Virus record (IMG/VR): IMGVR_UViG_3300045417_000507
Coordinates: 1-37,611 of that record
Length of the DNA stretch: 37,611 bases
Source: a virus
Direction: 5' to 3' (one strand)
In this document: positions 4,973 to 23,548 of the stretch, piece by piece
How positions within the stretch are numbered: position 1 is the stretch's first letter
Layout of the letters: each line of letters opens with the position of its first letter
Program-made: the position numbers and the translations under genes
The notes under the pieces: model-generated
What the model was told of the DNA's origin: nothing
Database searches by the model: none
The model's input: only the letters and a program-made list of their open reading frames with translations

Positions 4973-5965
4973 TCATATACTTTCTTTATTTCCAGAAAAT
5001 ATTATTTCTATTGGTTCATCTAATGTATGATTTAATTGATTTTTAATAAAAAATTGCATGGATTGAAAAGTGTTAAATTTATAAAGATTATTATTTTGAA
5101 ATAGTTTGTATGTATGTATTTTTTCTAAAATATCACATTTATTGATAATAAGTTTTGTAACACCAGAGATTTTAATTGCATCAATTAGCCTATTTAAGTT
5201 TAACCAATTAGCGATTCTTTTTCTGCCAGTAGTTGAACCAAACTCTTGACCAGCTTCTATTAGCATATTTAGTTCATCATCTTCCCAAAGAGTTTCTGGA
5301 AATAATGGATCAACACCACTTTTTGTATCATAAATTTTTGCAACACCTATAATTTCTCGAACTTTTTTAGGAGAAAATCCTAATGAACAAGCTGAGTATG
5401 GTAAAGTTTCACTACTAGTAACATAAGGATAATCGCCATAATTAATATCTAACCAAAAACTTTGCGCTCCTTCACAAAGGATATTGCCATAGAGTTCGCC
5501 GTCCCAAAGATGCTTTTTATCAATATAATCTCTAGCGAGTTTACCAACTCTTAGCATTTTATCTCCATAAGCTGGAGCTATGCCTTGTCCTGTTGTGCCT
5601 AGTTTCTGTTTAAGAACTTGGAGGTCATATTGAATATGTTTTTCTGTAATAATATGAGTTTTAGGACTAATTTTAATTAAAGATGTATCGAAGCCTTCTT
5701 TTTTTAAGTAATCTATTTCATCAAAAAATTTATCAACATTAACAACGCAATTAGGACCAATAATGCTTAGTTTATTTTGAAAGACTCCACATGGAATAAT
5801 ATGAGTTTTATATTTTTTATCATTTATATAAACTGTATGACCAGCATTGGGGCCTCCATTCCAACGACAAACTATATCATAATTTTTAGAAATTGCATTA
5901 CTAATTTTTCCTTTCCCTTCATCTCCCCAAGCTAATCCAAATATAATATCTACAAATTTAATCAT
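4973..5965 (-). CDS. purA: Adenylosuccinate synthetase, short viral/archaeal-length form
   Basis: Joins aspartate to IMP using GTP, the first step from IMP to AMP. Starting at ATG 5965 it is 330 residues, shorter than the roughly 430 of bacterial PurA and close to archaeal and phage forms. Motifs: GLAWGDEGKGK (10-20) with the catalytic Asp15, GGPNAGHT with His43, LGTTGQGIAPAYGDK, YPYVTSS and the late GSTTGRKRIANWL. The phage PurZ enzymes that make 2-aminoadenine DNA are related and, as I recall, replace the loop Asp with Ser or Gly. Here Asp is kept, favouring normal PurA chemistry. A 24-codon upstream extension is discarded because it crosses the promoter and the divergent gene. Confidence 0.9.
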   Translation of the reverse strand: MIKFVDIIFGLAWGDEGKGKISNAISKNYDIVCRWNGGPNAGHTVYINDKKYKTHIIPCGVFQNKLSIIGPNCVVNVDKFFDEIDYLKKEGFDTSLIKISPKTHIITEKHIQYDLQVLKQKLGTTGQGIAPAYGDKMLRVGKLARDYIDKKHLWDGELYGNILCEGAQSFWLDINYGDYPYVTSSETLPYSACSLGFSPKKVREIIGVAKIYDTKSGVDPLFPETLWEDDELNMLIEAGQEFGSTTGRKRIANWLNLNRLIDAIKISGVTKLIINKCDILEKIHTYKLFQNNNLYKFNTFQSMQFFIKNQLNHTLDEPIEIIFSGNKESI

Positions 5966-5975
5966 CACTAATATG

Positions 5976-6004
5976 ATTATAATATAAATATATGATAAAA
6001 TCAA
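5976..6004 (-). promoter_or_regulatory. Sigma-70-type promoter of purA
   Basis: TTGATT (6004-5999), 17 bases, TATAAT (5981-5976), ending 10 bases before the PurA ATG at 5965. Its -35 box overlaps the AAGTGTA motif of the divergent gene, so the two promoters occupy the same DNA. Confidence 0.7.
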
Positions 6005-6009
6005 GTGTA
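6003..6009 (+). promoter_or_regulatory. AAGTGTA start-proximal motif (candidate late promoter)
   Basis: AAGTGTA followed by nine bases and the ATG at 6019. The same heptamer or a one- to two-base variant precedes seven other probable late genes at the same distance. Confidence 0.55.
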
Positions 6010-6018
6010 AAATAATAT

Positions 6019-6867
6019 ATGCCATGCCCTTTAACATCAGATTTAGAATATCCAGATTACGTTAAGAAAATCCTTAAGGAAATAGAAGTTGGTAACGACC
6101 AGAGATTAAAAGATTGTGCTTGTAAACTTAAAACCGTGGTTGATGAAGAGGGATGTCCTATACTTGATGAAGATAATAAGCTAGGCTTGTTTCCGTTTTG
6201 CATAACAGACACAGAAACTGATCCAACTACAATGGGTCTTTCTCTTGGTCACCCATGGCTAAATTATCCTTATGCAGTAGGATTAAGTTTAGATGATATG
6301 ATGCATTTATTTTGGAGAGTAATTGGTTATAGCGAACCTAAATCTTCTTGCACTGTTATTATTCCTCCGGACGATTATGACCCTGGAAGTACAAATACTT
6401 TCTCATCGTGTGGAAGTTCTATACCGCTTAATAAAGCAAGTTCAGATGTAAAAGAAAGAGTATGTAATGCACATATTGGTTTTTCTTTTAATCGCAAAGC
6501 AAATGATGACGATATTTTGTATGGTAATGCTAGTCCTGGATGTACAATAAATAATCATGAAGATATAGCATTTTTTCAATCGAGTAATTACTATAAGACT
6601 TGCTATAGATATAATGACCTTTATTACCCAACAATACAATACACATGTATGGCTCCCCCGCCAGCTATATTCTCTACAACACAACGAGCTGGTGGTCCTG
6701 CTACAACCTTAAAATTAAAAATAAATACTACTAATTATAGTGTTCAAGTTTGGTATCCGCTTGCGAACCTAAATCATGATGCAATTATTAACGCTAATTT
6801 AGAATTAACTTCTGAAATTATACTCGGCGGGGGCGCGGGAGGCGGCATTTCTCAGATGATAGGATAG
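6019..6867 (+). CDS. Variable paralog family, copy 1 (MPCPL family)
   Basis: A 282-residue protein of a five-member family that I cannot assign. Residues 1-37 (MPCPLTSDLEYPDYVKK...DCACKL) are shared almost base for base with three other copies. Then come an acidic stretch (VVDEEGC...DEDNK), FPFC at 58-61 and the conserved CYRYNDLYYP near residue 195. Cysteines are frequent (C3, C33, C35, C46, C61). Between conserved blocks lie variable loops. Residues about 211-230 (MAPPPAIF...AGGPATT) and the tail GGGAGGG are encoded by GC-rich DNA quite unlike the AT-rich surroundings. The nearest relative is the partial copy at 37023. It is preceded by the late-type AAGTGTA motif. Likely a virion surface or adhesin-like protein, by inference only. 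Confidence 0.8.
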   Translation: MPCPLTSDLEYPDYVKKILKEIEVGNDQRLKDCACKLKTVVDEEGCPILDEDNKLGLFPFCITDTETDPTTMGLSLGHPWLNYPYAVGLSLDDMMHLFWRVIGYSEPKSSCTVIIPPDDYDPGSTNTFSSCGSSIPLNKASSDVKERVCNAHIGFSFNRKANDDDILYGNASPGCTINNHEDIAFFQSSNYYKTCYRYNDLYYPTIQYTCMAPPPAIFSTTQRAGGPATTLKLKINTTNYSVQVWYPLANLNHDAIINANLELTSEIILGGGAGGGISQMIG

Positions 6868-6929: not shown

Positions 6930-7180
6930 GACATAGCTTCCAATTAGAGCAGTTTGTTGATGTCAAATAATCAACTATCAATCCCTGAGATAGCAATGTC
7001 ATAAGGGCTGACAACTATTAAAACCTTCATCTGTACATAATATGGCTAGTGAAGGGAATGTAGCTATAGGCATCGCAGAATGTAGTGATCGAAGCTACCT
7101 CTGATCCATAAGTGCGATGGCCCGTTTATCGTTGAAATCACGATAAATTTGGAGTCAAAAGAAAAGTTGGATTGATAATA
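6930..7180 (+). ncRNA. Candidate structured non-coding RNA, unrecognised family
   Basis: No convincing reading frame fills the 415 bases between the two variable genes. By hand the stretch folds into many perfect stems: GTTGAT/ATCAAC, CTATC/GATAG with CCCT in its loop, TGTCA/TGACA with AGGG in its loop (able to kiss CCCT), CCTTCA/TGAAGG, GGCATCGCA/TGCGATGGCC (one bulge) and TTTATCGT/ACGATAAA. GTAGCT/AGCTAC interlocks with the GGCATCGCA stem as a possible pseudoknot. It has its own promoter. It does not show the group I intron core, RNase P, 6S, tmRNA or riboswitch signatures I know. It could be a leader of copy 2 or a separate RNA. Confidence 0.55.
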
Positions 7181-7264
7181 CTTAACTTCAGATATATAAA
7201 ATCTGGAGGTAAAGCCCTTTTGGATATCAAAGAAAAGTTAAATAATTTAGATTTTACTAAATGC

Positions 7265-7272
7265 AATGTGTA
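7265..7272 (+). promoter_or_regulatory. ATGTGTA variant of the start-proximal motif
   Basis: AATGTGTA, then ten bases and the ATG at 7283. It matches the AAGTGTA motif at one fewer position but keeps GTGTA and the spacing. Confidence 0.4.
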
Positions 7273-7282
7273 TTATTTATAT

Positions 7283-8107
7283 ATGCCATGCCCTTTAACA
7301 TCAGATTTAGAATATCCAGATTACGTTAAGAAAATCCTTAAGGAAATAGAAGCTGGTAACGACCAGAGATTAAAAGATTGTGCTTGTAAACTTAAAACCG
7401 TGGTTGATGAAGAGGGTTGCTCTTGCACTGATGAGGATGGTAAAATTGCTGTTTTTCCATTTTGTTGGCAAATTGGCGCGCCTCCTACTACATGGACTCA
7501 ATTACCGAGACTAACAGCTAAACAAGCTATGAGCCTTTATTGGAAAAGCAGTAGTATATCACCAATAAACTTGACATATTATAGTAACTCTTTTGGTGGT
7601 TGTCCACCTGAGACACAATTTACTTTAACACCAAATGGAAATCAAAAATTAGAAAAAAGAAAATTTTCTACTGAATTAACTCCAAATTCAAAAAGAAAGG
7701 AATTTGTATGTCCACATTATGTCAGTTTTGTTCAAGATTTTATATGGACAAGTTGTGACGGTATTGCTTCAGATATGACACTCGAAGTAATAAAATTTTT
7801 CGCTGGAGATAATTATGTGAATAAAGAGAATGGAATATGTTACTTTTATCCTTCAATATTTACTGACATAGGATTTTATACCTCAATATTAAGTACGGAA
7901 AGATGCGGTTGGGGAGAACCGTGTTGCGGTTGGGGACAACCGTGTAGTCCAGATGAAGGAATTTCTGTAAAAATCAAAATCGGTCAAAATTCTGAACCTG
8001 CAATAACTGAACCTGAAATTGTAATAACTGAATTTGATTATGATGAGTTTAATACGCCAGATGGTTTTAGCTTTAATAATACGACTATAACTATTAATGA
8101 ATCATAA
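7283..8107 (+). CDS. Variable paralog family, copy 2
   Basis: A 274-residue member starting MPCPLTSDLEYPDYVKK. The ATG at 7283 is chosen because it aligns with the other copies; the frame extends 37 codons further upstream without resemblance to anything. Its first 136 bases match copy 1 except for one base (Val24 to Ala). After FPFC the sequence diverges almost completely. The loop at residues about 208-221 reads CGWGEPC then CGWGQPC and is encoded by a 21-base tandem duplication. A GC-rich patch and many cysteines are again present. The downstream nucleotidyltransferase-like gene overlaps its stop by 11 bases, so the two are made together. Confidence 0.8.
   Translation: MPCPLTSDLEYPDYVKKILKEIEAGNDQRLKDCACKLKTVVDEEGCSCTDEDGKIAVFPFCWQIGAPPTTWTQLPRLTAKQAMSLYWKSSSISPINLTYYSNSFGGCPPETQFTLTPNGNQKLEKRKFSTELTPNSKRKEFVCPHYVSFVQDFIWTSCDGIASDMTLEVIKFFAGDNYVNKENGICYFYPSIFTDIGFYTSILSTERCGWGEPCCGWGQPCSPDEGISVKIKIGQNSEPAITEPEIVITEFDYDEFNTPDGFSFNNTTITINES
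7904..7945 (+). repeat. 21-base tandem duplication inside variable loop
   Basis: Two adjacent 21-base units, each beginning TGCGGTTGGGGA and ending CAACCGTGT or GAACCGTGT, differ at one base. They encode CGWGEPC and CGWGQPC and form a GC-rich island in copy 2 of the variable family. Confidence 0.85.
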
Positions 8108-17208: not shown

Positions 17209-18321
17209 ATGCAAAAACAAGAATTTAAAGAAGCTCTAAGTTATGATGATATCTCTCTCTTACCAAATTTTTCGGATATAAATTCAAGAAAAGAAATTAA
17301 TACAGAAACCAAGATATCTAAAAATAACATTATTGATATTCCAATTATATTGTCTCCAATGGACACTGTATCTTCTGTTAAATCTTGTATTAAAATGAAT
17401 AAATTAGGAGCAGCTGGAGTTATGCATAGATTTATGAGTATAGAAGATCAAACGGCAAAAACTAAAAAAATTAAAGATGAAAGTGGTTTTTGTATTACAG
17501 CTATAGGATTAAAGGATTGTGAAGAAAGAATATTCGCCACAAGTAAATACACAAACATATACTTTCTTGATACAGCTAATGGTTTAACAAAAAATGTTGA
17601 AGACTTTTTAAGATGGTATAAAACTTCGGGTTTTATTCAAGATATTATCGTGGGAAATACCTTAACAAAACAGAGCGTTTATAGATTAGCGAATCTAAAA
17701 GCCGATGGGTTTAGACATCTTATTGGTCCAGGAAGCATGTGTTTAACCCAAGTAAAAACTGGTATAGGATGTCCAAGTGTTACTGGTAATTATTACGCTT
17801 GGAAAGCTGTTAGAAATTGGGAATTAGCTCAAGTAGATTTATTTAGTTCGAGTGAGCCAGACCCATCTAATAGACCAAGCATTTTAACCGATGGAGGGAT
17901 TAGATATCCTAAAGATCTTGCGAAAGCTATAGCGAGTGGTTGTGATGCGGTTATATGCGGAAGAATTTTCGCGGGACTATTAGATATAGTCGATGAAGAA
18001 GATGTTGTTGAAAAAGACGGAAAAATATTTGCTAAATATAGAGGCATGGCAAGCAAAGATGTTGTAGAGGACTACGAATTATACGATGGTTCAAAGAAAA
18101 ATCTTTTCGTAGAAGGAGACAATACCCTAATACCTATTATAGAAAATAAAACGATAGAAGATGTGGTGTATGATTTTGTTAATGGTTTAAGAAGTTCTAT
18201 GAGTTATCTTGGTTTTAGACATCTTAAAGATATGAGGGGGGGCTTATGGACTAATAAAATTCAAGCCGTAAGAAATAGCCCCAACAGTATGTACGAAGGA
18301 TTTGCTCACGGAAAGACTTGA
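17209..18321 (+). CDS. guaB: IMP dehydrogenase-like enzyme without CBS domains
   Basis: A 370-residue TIM barrel of the IMPDH/GMP reductase family; IMPDH oxidises IMP to XMP on the route to GMP. Landmarks: LSYDDISLLPN at the N-terminus, PIILSPMDTVS, GPGSMCLTQVKTGIG with catalytic Cys178, LTDGGIRYPKDLAKAIASG (phosphate-binding strand) and the flap YRGMASKD. The roughly 120-residue CBS pair that inserts in most bacterial IMPDHs is absent, as in short viral and GMP-reductase-sized forms. The flap looks more like IMPDH, but GMP reductase cannot be excluded. With PurA it gives the phage both exits from IMP. Confidence 0.87.
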   Translation: MQKQEFKEALSYDDISLLPNFSDINSRKEINTETKISKNNIIDIPIILSPMDTVSSVKSCIKMNKLGAAGVMHRFMSIEDQTAKTKKIKDESGFCITAIGLKDCEERIFATSKYTNIYFLDTANGLTKNVEDFLRWYKTSGFIQDIIVGNTLTKQSVYRLANLKADGFRHLIGPGSMCLTQVKTGIGCPSVTGNYYAWKAVRNWELAQVDLFSSSEPDPSNRPSILTDGGIRYPKDLAKAIASGCDAVICGRIFAGLLDIVDEEDVVEKDGKIFAKYRGMASKDVVEDYELYDGSKKNLFVEGDNTLIPIIENKTIEDVVYDFVNGLRSSMSYLGFRHLKDMRGGLWTNKIQAVRNSPNSMYEGFAHGKT

Positions 18322-20567: not shown

Positions 20568-21473
20568 TTAAGAGGTATAATTTGTAGTTGTTATTTTAAT
20601 AGAAGTATGTTTTGAAAAAATAAACTGTGCTTCACCCCCATCCCAATTAACAGTTTTTGTTTTGGTTGGACTAGTATATGCATTAATTTTCATATCTTTA
20701 ATACTACCGTAATCAGTTTCAATTTCCTCATATTTGATGCACTCCGAAGCGATTTGAAATACACAATCCCAGTAACCCTCTGTTGTAAAACAATCAGCAC
20801 CAGTATCATATTCGCTCCATCGGTCGACGCCGACAGTGCCCTCGCCCTCCCCTAACCTGTTCTGAAAATAATACTGAATAAATGGTCTTCTTATATAAAA
20901 TTTATAATTTTGTCCAGATCCTATCTGTACTAATCGACTCAAATTATCACTGAAATACAACCTAATGTTTGCTGCAGCCCTTTCATAATGATAAGAACCT
21001 GCGGGAGGTGGTGGCCCCTCTAATATTTCGGTTATACCAAATGAATCGCCCCATTTGAAATTTTTATCTTCATCGCACACGAGTTTTTTTTGCTCTACAT
21101 CTCTAGTAAGTTCGACCGGTTGTATTTTTACTCCGTTAAAATCTATTTTTATGGTTTTTACTTGCCAATATAATTGCATGAGATGACTTAATTTTATTTC
21201 CTGCGCAACCGCTTTGAATTCTATAGTTGCATTTGGATCTCGCAAACATGAGACTTCTGGTACTTCATCTAGATTTTCATAAGTATCAATACAAATTGGA
21301 AAGACTGGCACCTTATCATTTTCATCAAGAATTAAGCATCCTTCATCTGTTATTGGGCTTTGAAGTTTACAAGCACAATCTTTTAATCTCTGGTCGTTAC
21401 CAACTTCTATTTCCTTAAGGATTTTCTTAACGTAATCTGGATATTCTAAATCTGATGTTAAAGGGCATGGCAT
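20568..21473 (-). CDS. Variable paralog family, copy 3
   Basis: A 301-residue member on the opposite strand to copies 1 and 2. The first 111 bases (37 residues) are identical to copy 1, after which it diverges: LQSPITDEGC replaces LKTVVDEEGC, and only FPIC and the following helix align. It lacks CYRYNDLYYP, so it is the most distant in the body. Loops at about residues 152-165 (EGPPPPAG) and 214-232 (RLGEGEGTVGVDRW) are encoded by GC-rich stretches near 20999-21020 and 20821-20855. The motif TTGTGTA lies nine bases upstream. Confidence 0.8.
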   Translation of the reverse strand: MPCPLTSDLEYPDYVKKILKEIEVGNDQRLKDCACKLQSPITDEGCLILDENDKVPVFPICIDTYENLDEVPEVSCLRDPNATIEFKAVAQEIKLSHLMQLYWQVKTIKIDFNGVKIQPVELTRDVEQKKLVCDEDKNFKWGDSFGITEILEGPPPPAGSYHYERAAANIRLYFSDNLSRLVQIGSGQNYKFYIRRPFIQYYFQNRLGEGEGTVGVDRWSEYDTGADCFTTEGYWDCVFQIASECIKYEEIETDYGSIKDMKINAYTSPTKTKTVNWDGGEAQFIFSKHTSIKITTTNYTS

Positions 21474-21578: not shown

Positions 21579-22394
21579 TTACTCAACAAAAGATTGTGGG
21601 TCCGCTACCGTGATTGTTGCAGAGGCTATAGAGCACTCGTTAGGAGTATCCTCCCATCGGAGCCGATATAAGGGTATAGAATAAGAAGGGGAGTTTTTAC
21701 TTATTGTAAAATTAAAGTTAGTAAAATATTCAACCCTCCCCCCGCCCTCCACTCCTCCAGGGCCAACTTCGCTTATCAAACCGAACATTTCAGCATAAAT
21801 CGCAGGATAATAAAGATCGTTATATCTATAACAACTTACGTAAGGAGGACTCGCTGTTAATCCAAAGAAGCTAAATCCAGCGATTGAACAGGGTGGCACA
21901 TTACGATAATCATCTAAATAAGTATTTGTTCGAAGCGACGTGTGTAGTGCGTAACCTATATCCAAACAAACCCTCTCTTTTGGAATAGGAGAAGAATAAA
22001 TATTTTGTTTGCATATCTTCCCGTTTATCTTTTCGCAATAGCTCGGACCCGGCGCTAATTGAAATTCTCCCTTAATTGTTCCCCATTGTTTGAAATTCCA
22101 ATAGAATTGACTTAAATCTCTAAGGCTAAATCCAACTTTATACAACTTATAGCGATAAGGATCCCATGATTCAAAACCGATCTCTATAGGATCTTGCTCT
22201 GTGTCTACTATGCAAAACGGAAACAAGCCTAGCTTATTATCTTCATCAAGTATAGGACATCCCTCTTCATCAACCACGGTTTTAAGTTTACAAGCACAAT
22301 CTTTTAATCTCTGGTCGTTACCAGCTTCTATTTCCTTAAGGATTTTCTTAACGTAATCTGGATATTCTAAATCTGATGTTAAAGGGCATGGCAT
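21579..22394 (-). CDS. Variable paralog family, copy 4
   Basis: A 271-residue member closest to copy 1: the first 62 residues match apart from Val24 to Ala, and ERVC...IG and CYRYNDLYYPAI are shared further on. Between them the sequence and length differ freely. The loop SEVGPGGVEGGGRVEY (about residue 212-227) is encoded by a G-rich run at about 21733-21765; another GC-rich stretch at 22047-22062 encodes LAPGPS. It starts three bases after the second nucleotidyltransferase-like gene in the same operon. Confidence 0.8.
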   Translation of the reverse strand: MPCPLTSDLEYPDYVKKILKEIEAGNDQRLKDCACKLKTVVDEEGCPILDEDNKLGLFPFCIVDTEQDPIEIGFESWDPYRYKLYKVGFSLRDLSQFYWNFKQWGTIKGEFQLAPGPSYCEKINGKICKQNIYSSPIPKERVCLDIGYALHTSLRTNTYLDDYRNVPPCSIAGFSFFGLTASPPYVSCYRYNDLYYPAIYAEMFGLISEVGPGGVEGGGRVEYFTNFNFTISKNSPSYSIPLYRLRWEDTPNECSIASATITVADPQSFVE

Positions 22395-22917: not shown

Positions 22918-23130
22918 ATGAATGAGATTATTAAGAATAAATCCAAATGGTCAGTTTACTCTCAAAAATGTATCAAGCATTATAATATTGATAATAATAT
23001 TATTAGTGATGAACCAGATGAATATCCATGTATTGCTATACCCCAATTAATATCCGATATAAATGGCATAAGAATTAAATTTAATTTTATCTATAAAAAA
23101 GATTGTCAAAAATTATTAAAAAGTTTATAA
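22918..23130 (+). CDS. Hypothetical small protein
   Basis: A 70-residue protein: basic N-terminus (MNEIIKNKSKW), a DEPDEYPCIAIP centre and a basic C-terminal part (KFNFIYKKDCQKLLKSL). No family is recognised. It starts directly behind the ATAAT ladder with no Shine-Dalgarno, and its stop codon overlaps the -10 box of the tmRNA promoter. Confidence 0.55.
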   Translation: MNEIIKNKSKWSVYSQKCIKHYNIDNNIISDEPDEYPCIAIPQLISDINGIRIKFNFIYKKDCQKLLKSL

Positions 23131-23131
23131 T
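23103..23131 (+). promoter_or_regulatory. Sigma-70-type promoter of the tmRNA
   Basis: TTGTCA (23103-23108), 17 bases, TATAAT (23126-23131). The predicted start near 23138 lies about 23 bases before the mature tmRNA 5' end at 23161. Confidence 0.7.
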
Positions 23132-23160
23132 GTGTAACTAATAATAAGTTCTTTCTCATT

Positions 23161-23548
23161 GGGCGCGTACTGGTTTCGATTTTAGTAATAGAAATTAAAA
23201 TGCAAGTAGAGGTTTAGGTGGGACTCTTTAAAAAACCTTAAAAGTATTAACTGCTAAAACAGCCAAATACAAAGGCCATATCTCTGCTAGAGTTTCTCTA
23301 GTTGAGAAGGCCGTTTCTGTAGCTTAAGTTCTACAGCGTGATATCTATGACACATCTAATAGAATATTGCGTATTTAGATGTCTTTGCCTTTAAAGTTTT
23401 TTTATTCTTTATAGGTTTAGTATTCAAAATAAAATCGCAAAGTGTGTTTGTTGTTTCTCTACACAAAGCTAAAATTAAAAACAACTAAACTTGTAGTATT
23501 TTAATTTAAATTATCTAAAAGACGAGAGTTCAATTCTCTCCGCGTCCA
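23161..23548 (+). ncRNA. ssrA: Phage-encoded tmRNA (SsrA), one-piece
   Basis: Rescues stalled ribosomes by acting as tRNA and mRNA. The 5' end GGGCGCG...TGGTTTCGA pairs with 3' CGCGTCC (7 base pairs), followed by discriminator A at 23548; CCA is not encoded. The T arm is GAGAGTTCAATTCTCTC. Helix P2 is visible as AAATTAAAAT against ATTTTAATTT. A pseudoknot-like PK1 (GGTTT/AAACC with ACTC-TTTA/TAAAAGT) precedes the resume codon, most likely GCT at 23253. The frame runs 24 codons to TAA at 23325: AKTAKYKGHIS, ARVSLV, then EKAVSVA. The tag is longer than the E. coli 10-residue tag and ends SVA in place of LAA. A later hairpin ACATCTAA/TTAGATGT is also present. Confidence 0.93.

Follow-up and report, generated by a model that had tools for sequence, protein, structure and literature searches.

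Phage-encoded tmRNAs are already known (PMC4131195, PMC9004378, PMC7162821), as are tags of 8-35 residues (PMC8012679) and, from Bacillus phage G, a phage tag with a VA ending. A tag end of the LAA type is common and not defining, since tags ending in lysine occur in Carsonella (PMC4131195), and for the RNA of mycobacteriophage DS6A, which has the tRNA-like domain only, a decoy role has been proposed (PMC4131195). Phage tmRNAs have thus far been catalogued, with the function of their tags largely untested.

The DNA analysed here, the whole of which we call the window, is a virus record of 37,611 bases with 30% G+C, in which a sequence-only reading had recognised a phage tmRNA by its clear acceptor, T arm and resume codon and had proposed a covariance-model search. 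ARAGORN placed a complete one-piece tmRNA at the same bounds (23161-23548, + strand) with the tag AKTAKYKGHISARVSLVEKAVSVA, and the search with Rfam RF00023 gave a full-length match over model positions 1-374, scoring 105.2 bits where the gathering score is 47 (E 2.6e-40), so that the identification was borne out by both. Tag-bearing tmRNAs were found in 70 IMG/VR contigs, and the 58 distinct ones form the comparison set, referred to below as the relatives. The features of the locus are as follows.

23103..23131, + strand: sigma70-type promoter, TTGTCA (23103-23108), 17 nt, TATAAT (23126-23131); 11/12 consensus matches.
23148..23158, + strand: boxA-like leader GTTCTTTCTCA (commonest form in relatives GTTCTTTAACA); conserved block 5' of the tmRNA.
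23161..23548, + strand: tmRNA gene, one-piece, without encoded CCA; ARAGORN and Rfam RF00023.
23161..23167, + strand: acceptor stem 5' strand GGGCGCG, with G3 at 23163; covaries with 23541-23547; G3-U70 in 58/58.
23208..23238, + strand: pseudoknot PK1, S1 23208-23211/23224-23227 and S2 23216-23219/23235-23238; compensatory changes.
23253..23327, + strand: tag reading frame AKTAKYKGHISARVSLVEKAVSVA, stop TAA 23325-23327; supported by pN/pS.
23317..23336, + strand: P5-like hairpin CUGUAG/CUACAG over the SVA codons and stop; read from the sequence and kept in the alignment.
23524..23548, + strand: T arm, acceptor 3' strand (U70 at 23545) and discriminator A73; T-stem pairs 91-100% kept.

The 3' CCA is absent from the gene, which ends ..GUCCA with AGC following. 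Across the 58 distinct relatives, acceptor positions 5 and 6 exchanged pair types with none broken, the T-stem pairs varied among several pair types, and the discriminator A73 and the G3-U70 pair were invariant. The stems of PK1 showed compensation when the alignment output was inspected by eye (AGAG/CUCU to GGAG/CUCC; AGGU/ACCU to UUGAA/UUCAA). GCT at 23253 serves as the resume codon; it is preceded by T at -5 and A at -4, which match E. coli U85/A86, where the frame-setting signal lies upstream of the resume codon (rule from PMC2481249); the A at -4 is also fixed in the relatives (n=58). The RNA therefore has both the tRNA-like domain of RF00023 (G3-U70, T arm, covarying stems) and the marks of a tmRNA, namely a resume codon four bases past the conserved A and an open tag frame with a stop, and would presumably be charged by AlaRS, bind SmpB and tag proteins.

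The window encodes a ribonucleotide reductase, a UvsX-like recombinase, a sigma-like factor, an adenylosuccinate synthetase and an IMPDH-like gene. A search with UvsX returned 171 related IMG/VR contigs and only weak cultured relatives, and 27 of 50 records related by UvsX contained a tmRNA, among them 14 of the 17 that exceed 80 kb. A distant blastn search with the tmRNA against 50,697 phage records gave no match; in a relative of 171.9 kb the terminase bore only a distant resemblance to known terminases, and no phage record matched a protein encoded in the head-gene region. The clade carrying its own tmRNA is a large uncultured phage group. Two other observations concern gene content: the adenylosuccinate synthetase-like gene (4973-6037, -) and the IMPDH/GMP-reductase-like gene (17209-18321, +) lie in the same fragment as the ribonucleotide reductase, which points to an unusual purine metabolism that may have a 2-aminoadenine (PurZ) link, and the members of a multi-copy protein family (6019-6867, 7172-8107, 20568-21473 and 21579-22394) have their N-terminus in common (MPCPLTSDLEYPDYVKKILKEIE.GNDQRLKDCACKL) but diverge at the C-terminus, the member at 21579-22394 having no Pfam or PHROG match.

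The host was sought in several ways. UvsX matched two genome contigs only, in Verrucomicrobiales and Flavobacteriaceae MAGs at 54-55% identity, which was too weak for an assignment, and blast with the tmRNA gave only short matches in 289 genomes of the Verrucomicrobiales MAG's phylum and 395 of the Flavobacteriaceae MAG's phylum, as did a sister-clade tmRNA. A relative's protein (L115:847-3342, -) carries a PATR repeat and, below threshold, a PEP-CTERM motif; such PEP-CTERM/PATR-like domains, near or below cut-off, are a possible hint of a Verrucomicrobia host. Shine-Dalgarno use was low yet above control (22-24% against 11%). No SmpB gene was found in 34 relative records, in a search that found SmpB in 10 of 14 control genomes; the records are mostly fragments, so a phage SmpB could lie elsewhere, and with none found, host SmpB, AlaRS and CCA-adding enzyme would presumably be used.

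A sister clade with 54-65% UvsX identity has one-piece tmRNAs of the same architecture, with CCA encoded and with basic tags of 20-31 residues ending (L/M)AA. These tags were given by ARAGORN (GNKDRVRAFGFKSPKLALAA, GNKNRVRALGFKNRLATKRFGLKSRRLALAA) or, where ARAGORN failed, read by hand (GNKARVKTFGFRKTAKVAMAA, GNKSRIKAFAFKKRELALAA, GNKSRIKAFGFQKPELALAA). Four clear sister-clade tmRNAs (L299-L302) were found by Rfam and missed by ARAGORN, which suggests that surveys of phage tmRNAs using ARAGORN alone may undercount.

Upstream of the gene, 9-12 of 12 promoter consensus positions matched in all 53 distinct upstreams of the relatives, nearly all with the 17-nt spacer and two with a perfect TTGACA-17-TATAAT, compared with a maximum of 8/12 in composition shuffles. 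The promoter persisted across differing upstream gene contexts.

Between promoter and tmRNA stands AGTTCTTTAACATT or a close variant, a block conserved directly ahead of the tmRNA in almost all 58 relatives and in 6/6 sister-clade tmRNAs. The commonest form (20/58 relatives) is an exact match to the boxA consensus GYTCTTTAANA (PMC5725501), and the window's own leader has two mismatches to it. The leader is probably a boxA and would, as we infer, bind NusB/S10. Another possible reading, to which we give less weight, is that it serves the tmRNA precursor as an element for 5' processing or for pairing: it adjoins the mature 5' end, the E. coli ssrA leader likewise ends ACATT, and it is partly complementary to AAAGAACT, which lies in the tmRNA's 3' half, with all 8 pairs formed in 24 of the 57 relatives scored. 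In the remaining relatives, however, only 5-7 of the 8 pairs form; the leader stays fixed while its partner changes, and six sister tmRNAs retain GTTCTTT despite a different facing sequence, so that base pairing with AAAGAACT was judged unlikely as the reason for leader conservation. A processing or pairing element also sits poorly with a commonest form that is the exact boxA consensus, and with the occurrence of GTTCTTT at the same place, no more than about 20 bases from the tmRNA, in 11 of the 30 ssrA genes sampled in the Flavobacteriaceae MAG's phylum (Bacteroidota). It preceded ssrA in 1 of 30 genes from the Verrucomicrobiales MAG's phylum, the leaders in neither phylum being independent samples, and was absent from the E. 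coli ssrA leader. The ssrA genes of the Flavobacteriaceae MAG's phylum with a boxA-like GTTCTTT directly upstream are L274, L316, L318, L321, L323-L325, L328, L330, L336 and L338. A literature search of open papers found no report of boxA on tmRNA or ssrA genes; should the boxA reading of this leader, in phages and some bacteria, be true, Nus-factor control would cover another non-coding RNA.

The tag was described in the sequence-only reading as unusual both in its SVA end and in its 24 residues. The end stands, as the tag given by ARAGORN agrees and SVA closes 58/58 of the relatives' tags, with the usual LAA-type degron end found in none of them; the length is long yet within the known range, given the 8-35 residues on record (PMC8012679). 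In one relative (L148) the ARAGORN tag begins nine bases late owing to one upstream change, and reading from the homologous codon restores the same tag. The body AK[TK]AKYKGH[ILV]S[AT]R hardly varies among relatives, and the window tag carries a net charge (K+R minus D+E) of +4, compared with -2 for the E. coli tag. Variation in the tag region of the alignment falls mostly at third codon positions, and pN/pS for the tag frame was 0.21 overall and 0.07 over codons 1-18, compared with 2.1 and 0.9 for the other two frames. By this measure purifying selection on the tag frame is strong, which shows that the peptide itself matters; in the 58 natural variants selection acts on it and not on ribosome release only. 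Because the SV codons are part of the P5-like hairpin, they are also constrained by RNA structure. The tag pattern had no match in 84,980 bacterial and archaeal species genomes, the tag had none among solved structures, and elsewhere in a relative's genome there was no match of note.

The sequence-only reading had suggested that the phage may redirect tagged proteins, evade the ClpXP rules of its host or replace a host tmRNA during infection. We infer that the tag remains a signal for degradation or handling whose tuning is to something besides the standard LAA contact. The sister clades differ exactly at the degron end (SVA against LAA/MAA), a natural experiment on why tmRNA is carried by phages, with the direction of change unrooted. 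Evasion of ClpXP by an SVA-ended tag is possible. Somewhat doubtful, in our estimate, is the proposal that the tag spares or diverts rescued proteins, SVA weakening recognition by host ClpXP and the basic body directing them to another protease or to reuse. The fixation of SVA, the strong constraint on the tag, the absence of its pattern from all species genomes scanned and the (L/M)AA ends of the sister clade would all fit such diversion, but that clade retains those ends on equally basic tags, and the SV codons may be held by the P5-like stem as well. E. coli still breaks down tags that end in LVA or ASV, some more slowly, which also tells against diversion; a VA ending is compatible with degradation.

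Taken together, the window RNA is quite likely a functional phage-encoded one-piece tmRNA with its own sigma70-type promoter, a boxA-like leader, reliance on host factors and an SVA tag; the structure, the frame, selection on the tag peptide and the promoter-like and boxA-like elements are established at the level of sequence. Very improbable is a decoy RNA that would sequester SmpB or AlaRS and thereby block trans-translation in the host, for which the tRNA-like domain with G3-U70 and the DS6A precedent (PMC4131195) might speak: a decoy needs no tag frame, yet purifying selection on this one is strong, and neither PK1 nor the resume signal nor the stop has been lost. A functionless host ssrA fragment carried by chance, as prophages can carry ssrA pieces (PMC9004378), is scarcely credible for a complete gene that a wide clade has conserved and whose tag pattern is absent from every species genome scanned, and the evidence of selection contradicts it.

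If the RNA is a functional tmRNA, host RNA polymerase would transcribe it from its own sigma70-type promoter, and the boxA-like leader would probably load NusB/S10, keeping Rho from stopping a long untranslated RNA. Host enzymes would trim it and add CCA, host AlaRS would charge it with alanine via G3-U70, and host SmpB would bring it to ribosomes stalled during infection. Translation would then resume at GCT (23253), the phage-specific basic, SVA-ended tag would be added and the ribosome freed. The simplest benefit, going by the established role of trans-translation, would be rescue of ribosomes stalled on cleaved mRNAs in infection. That the clade has re-programmed trans-translation, with a boxA-antiterminated tmRNA whose basic SVA tag is handled differently by host SsrA-tag proteases, is a more speculative and on balance unlikely extension; if true, the phage gains its own protein-fate label in infection.

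Among known systems, Bacillus phage G also has a one-piece tmRNA, and its tag, recomputed here as AKLNITNNELQVA, ends in VA (QVA) as the sequence-only reading had stated; in contrast to the window, it is an unrelated jumbo phage with a neutral 13-residue tag and, unlike the window clade, has no GTTCTTT in the 80 nt upstream. Pelagibacter phage Mosig and Methylophilales phage Melnitz likewise provide tmRNAs from aquatic phages, but that of Melnitz is of the two-piece permuted alphaproteobacterial type, with a glutamine riboswitch (PMC9004378), and the Mosig gene is permuted, with the tag GEDNFALAA (ARAGORN). The mycobacteriophages of the C-cluster (Bxz1 and others) likewise have complete phage ssrA genes (PMC4131195) and belong to other phage lineages. 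Huge phages also have tmRNAs from metagenomes, in a set that includes SmpB genes (PMC7162821), whereas none was found in the 34 relatives here. The commonest leader of the relatives matches GYTCTTTAANA as do the boxA elements of rRNA operons and suhB, although here the boxA-like leader precedes a tmRNA. What is new is the clade, the basic SVA tag that it conserves together with the evidence that the peptide is under selection, the contrast with the sister clade, the 17-nt-spaced promoter and the boxA-like leader.
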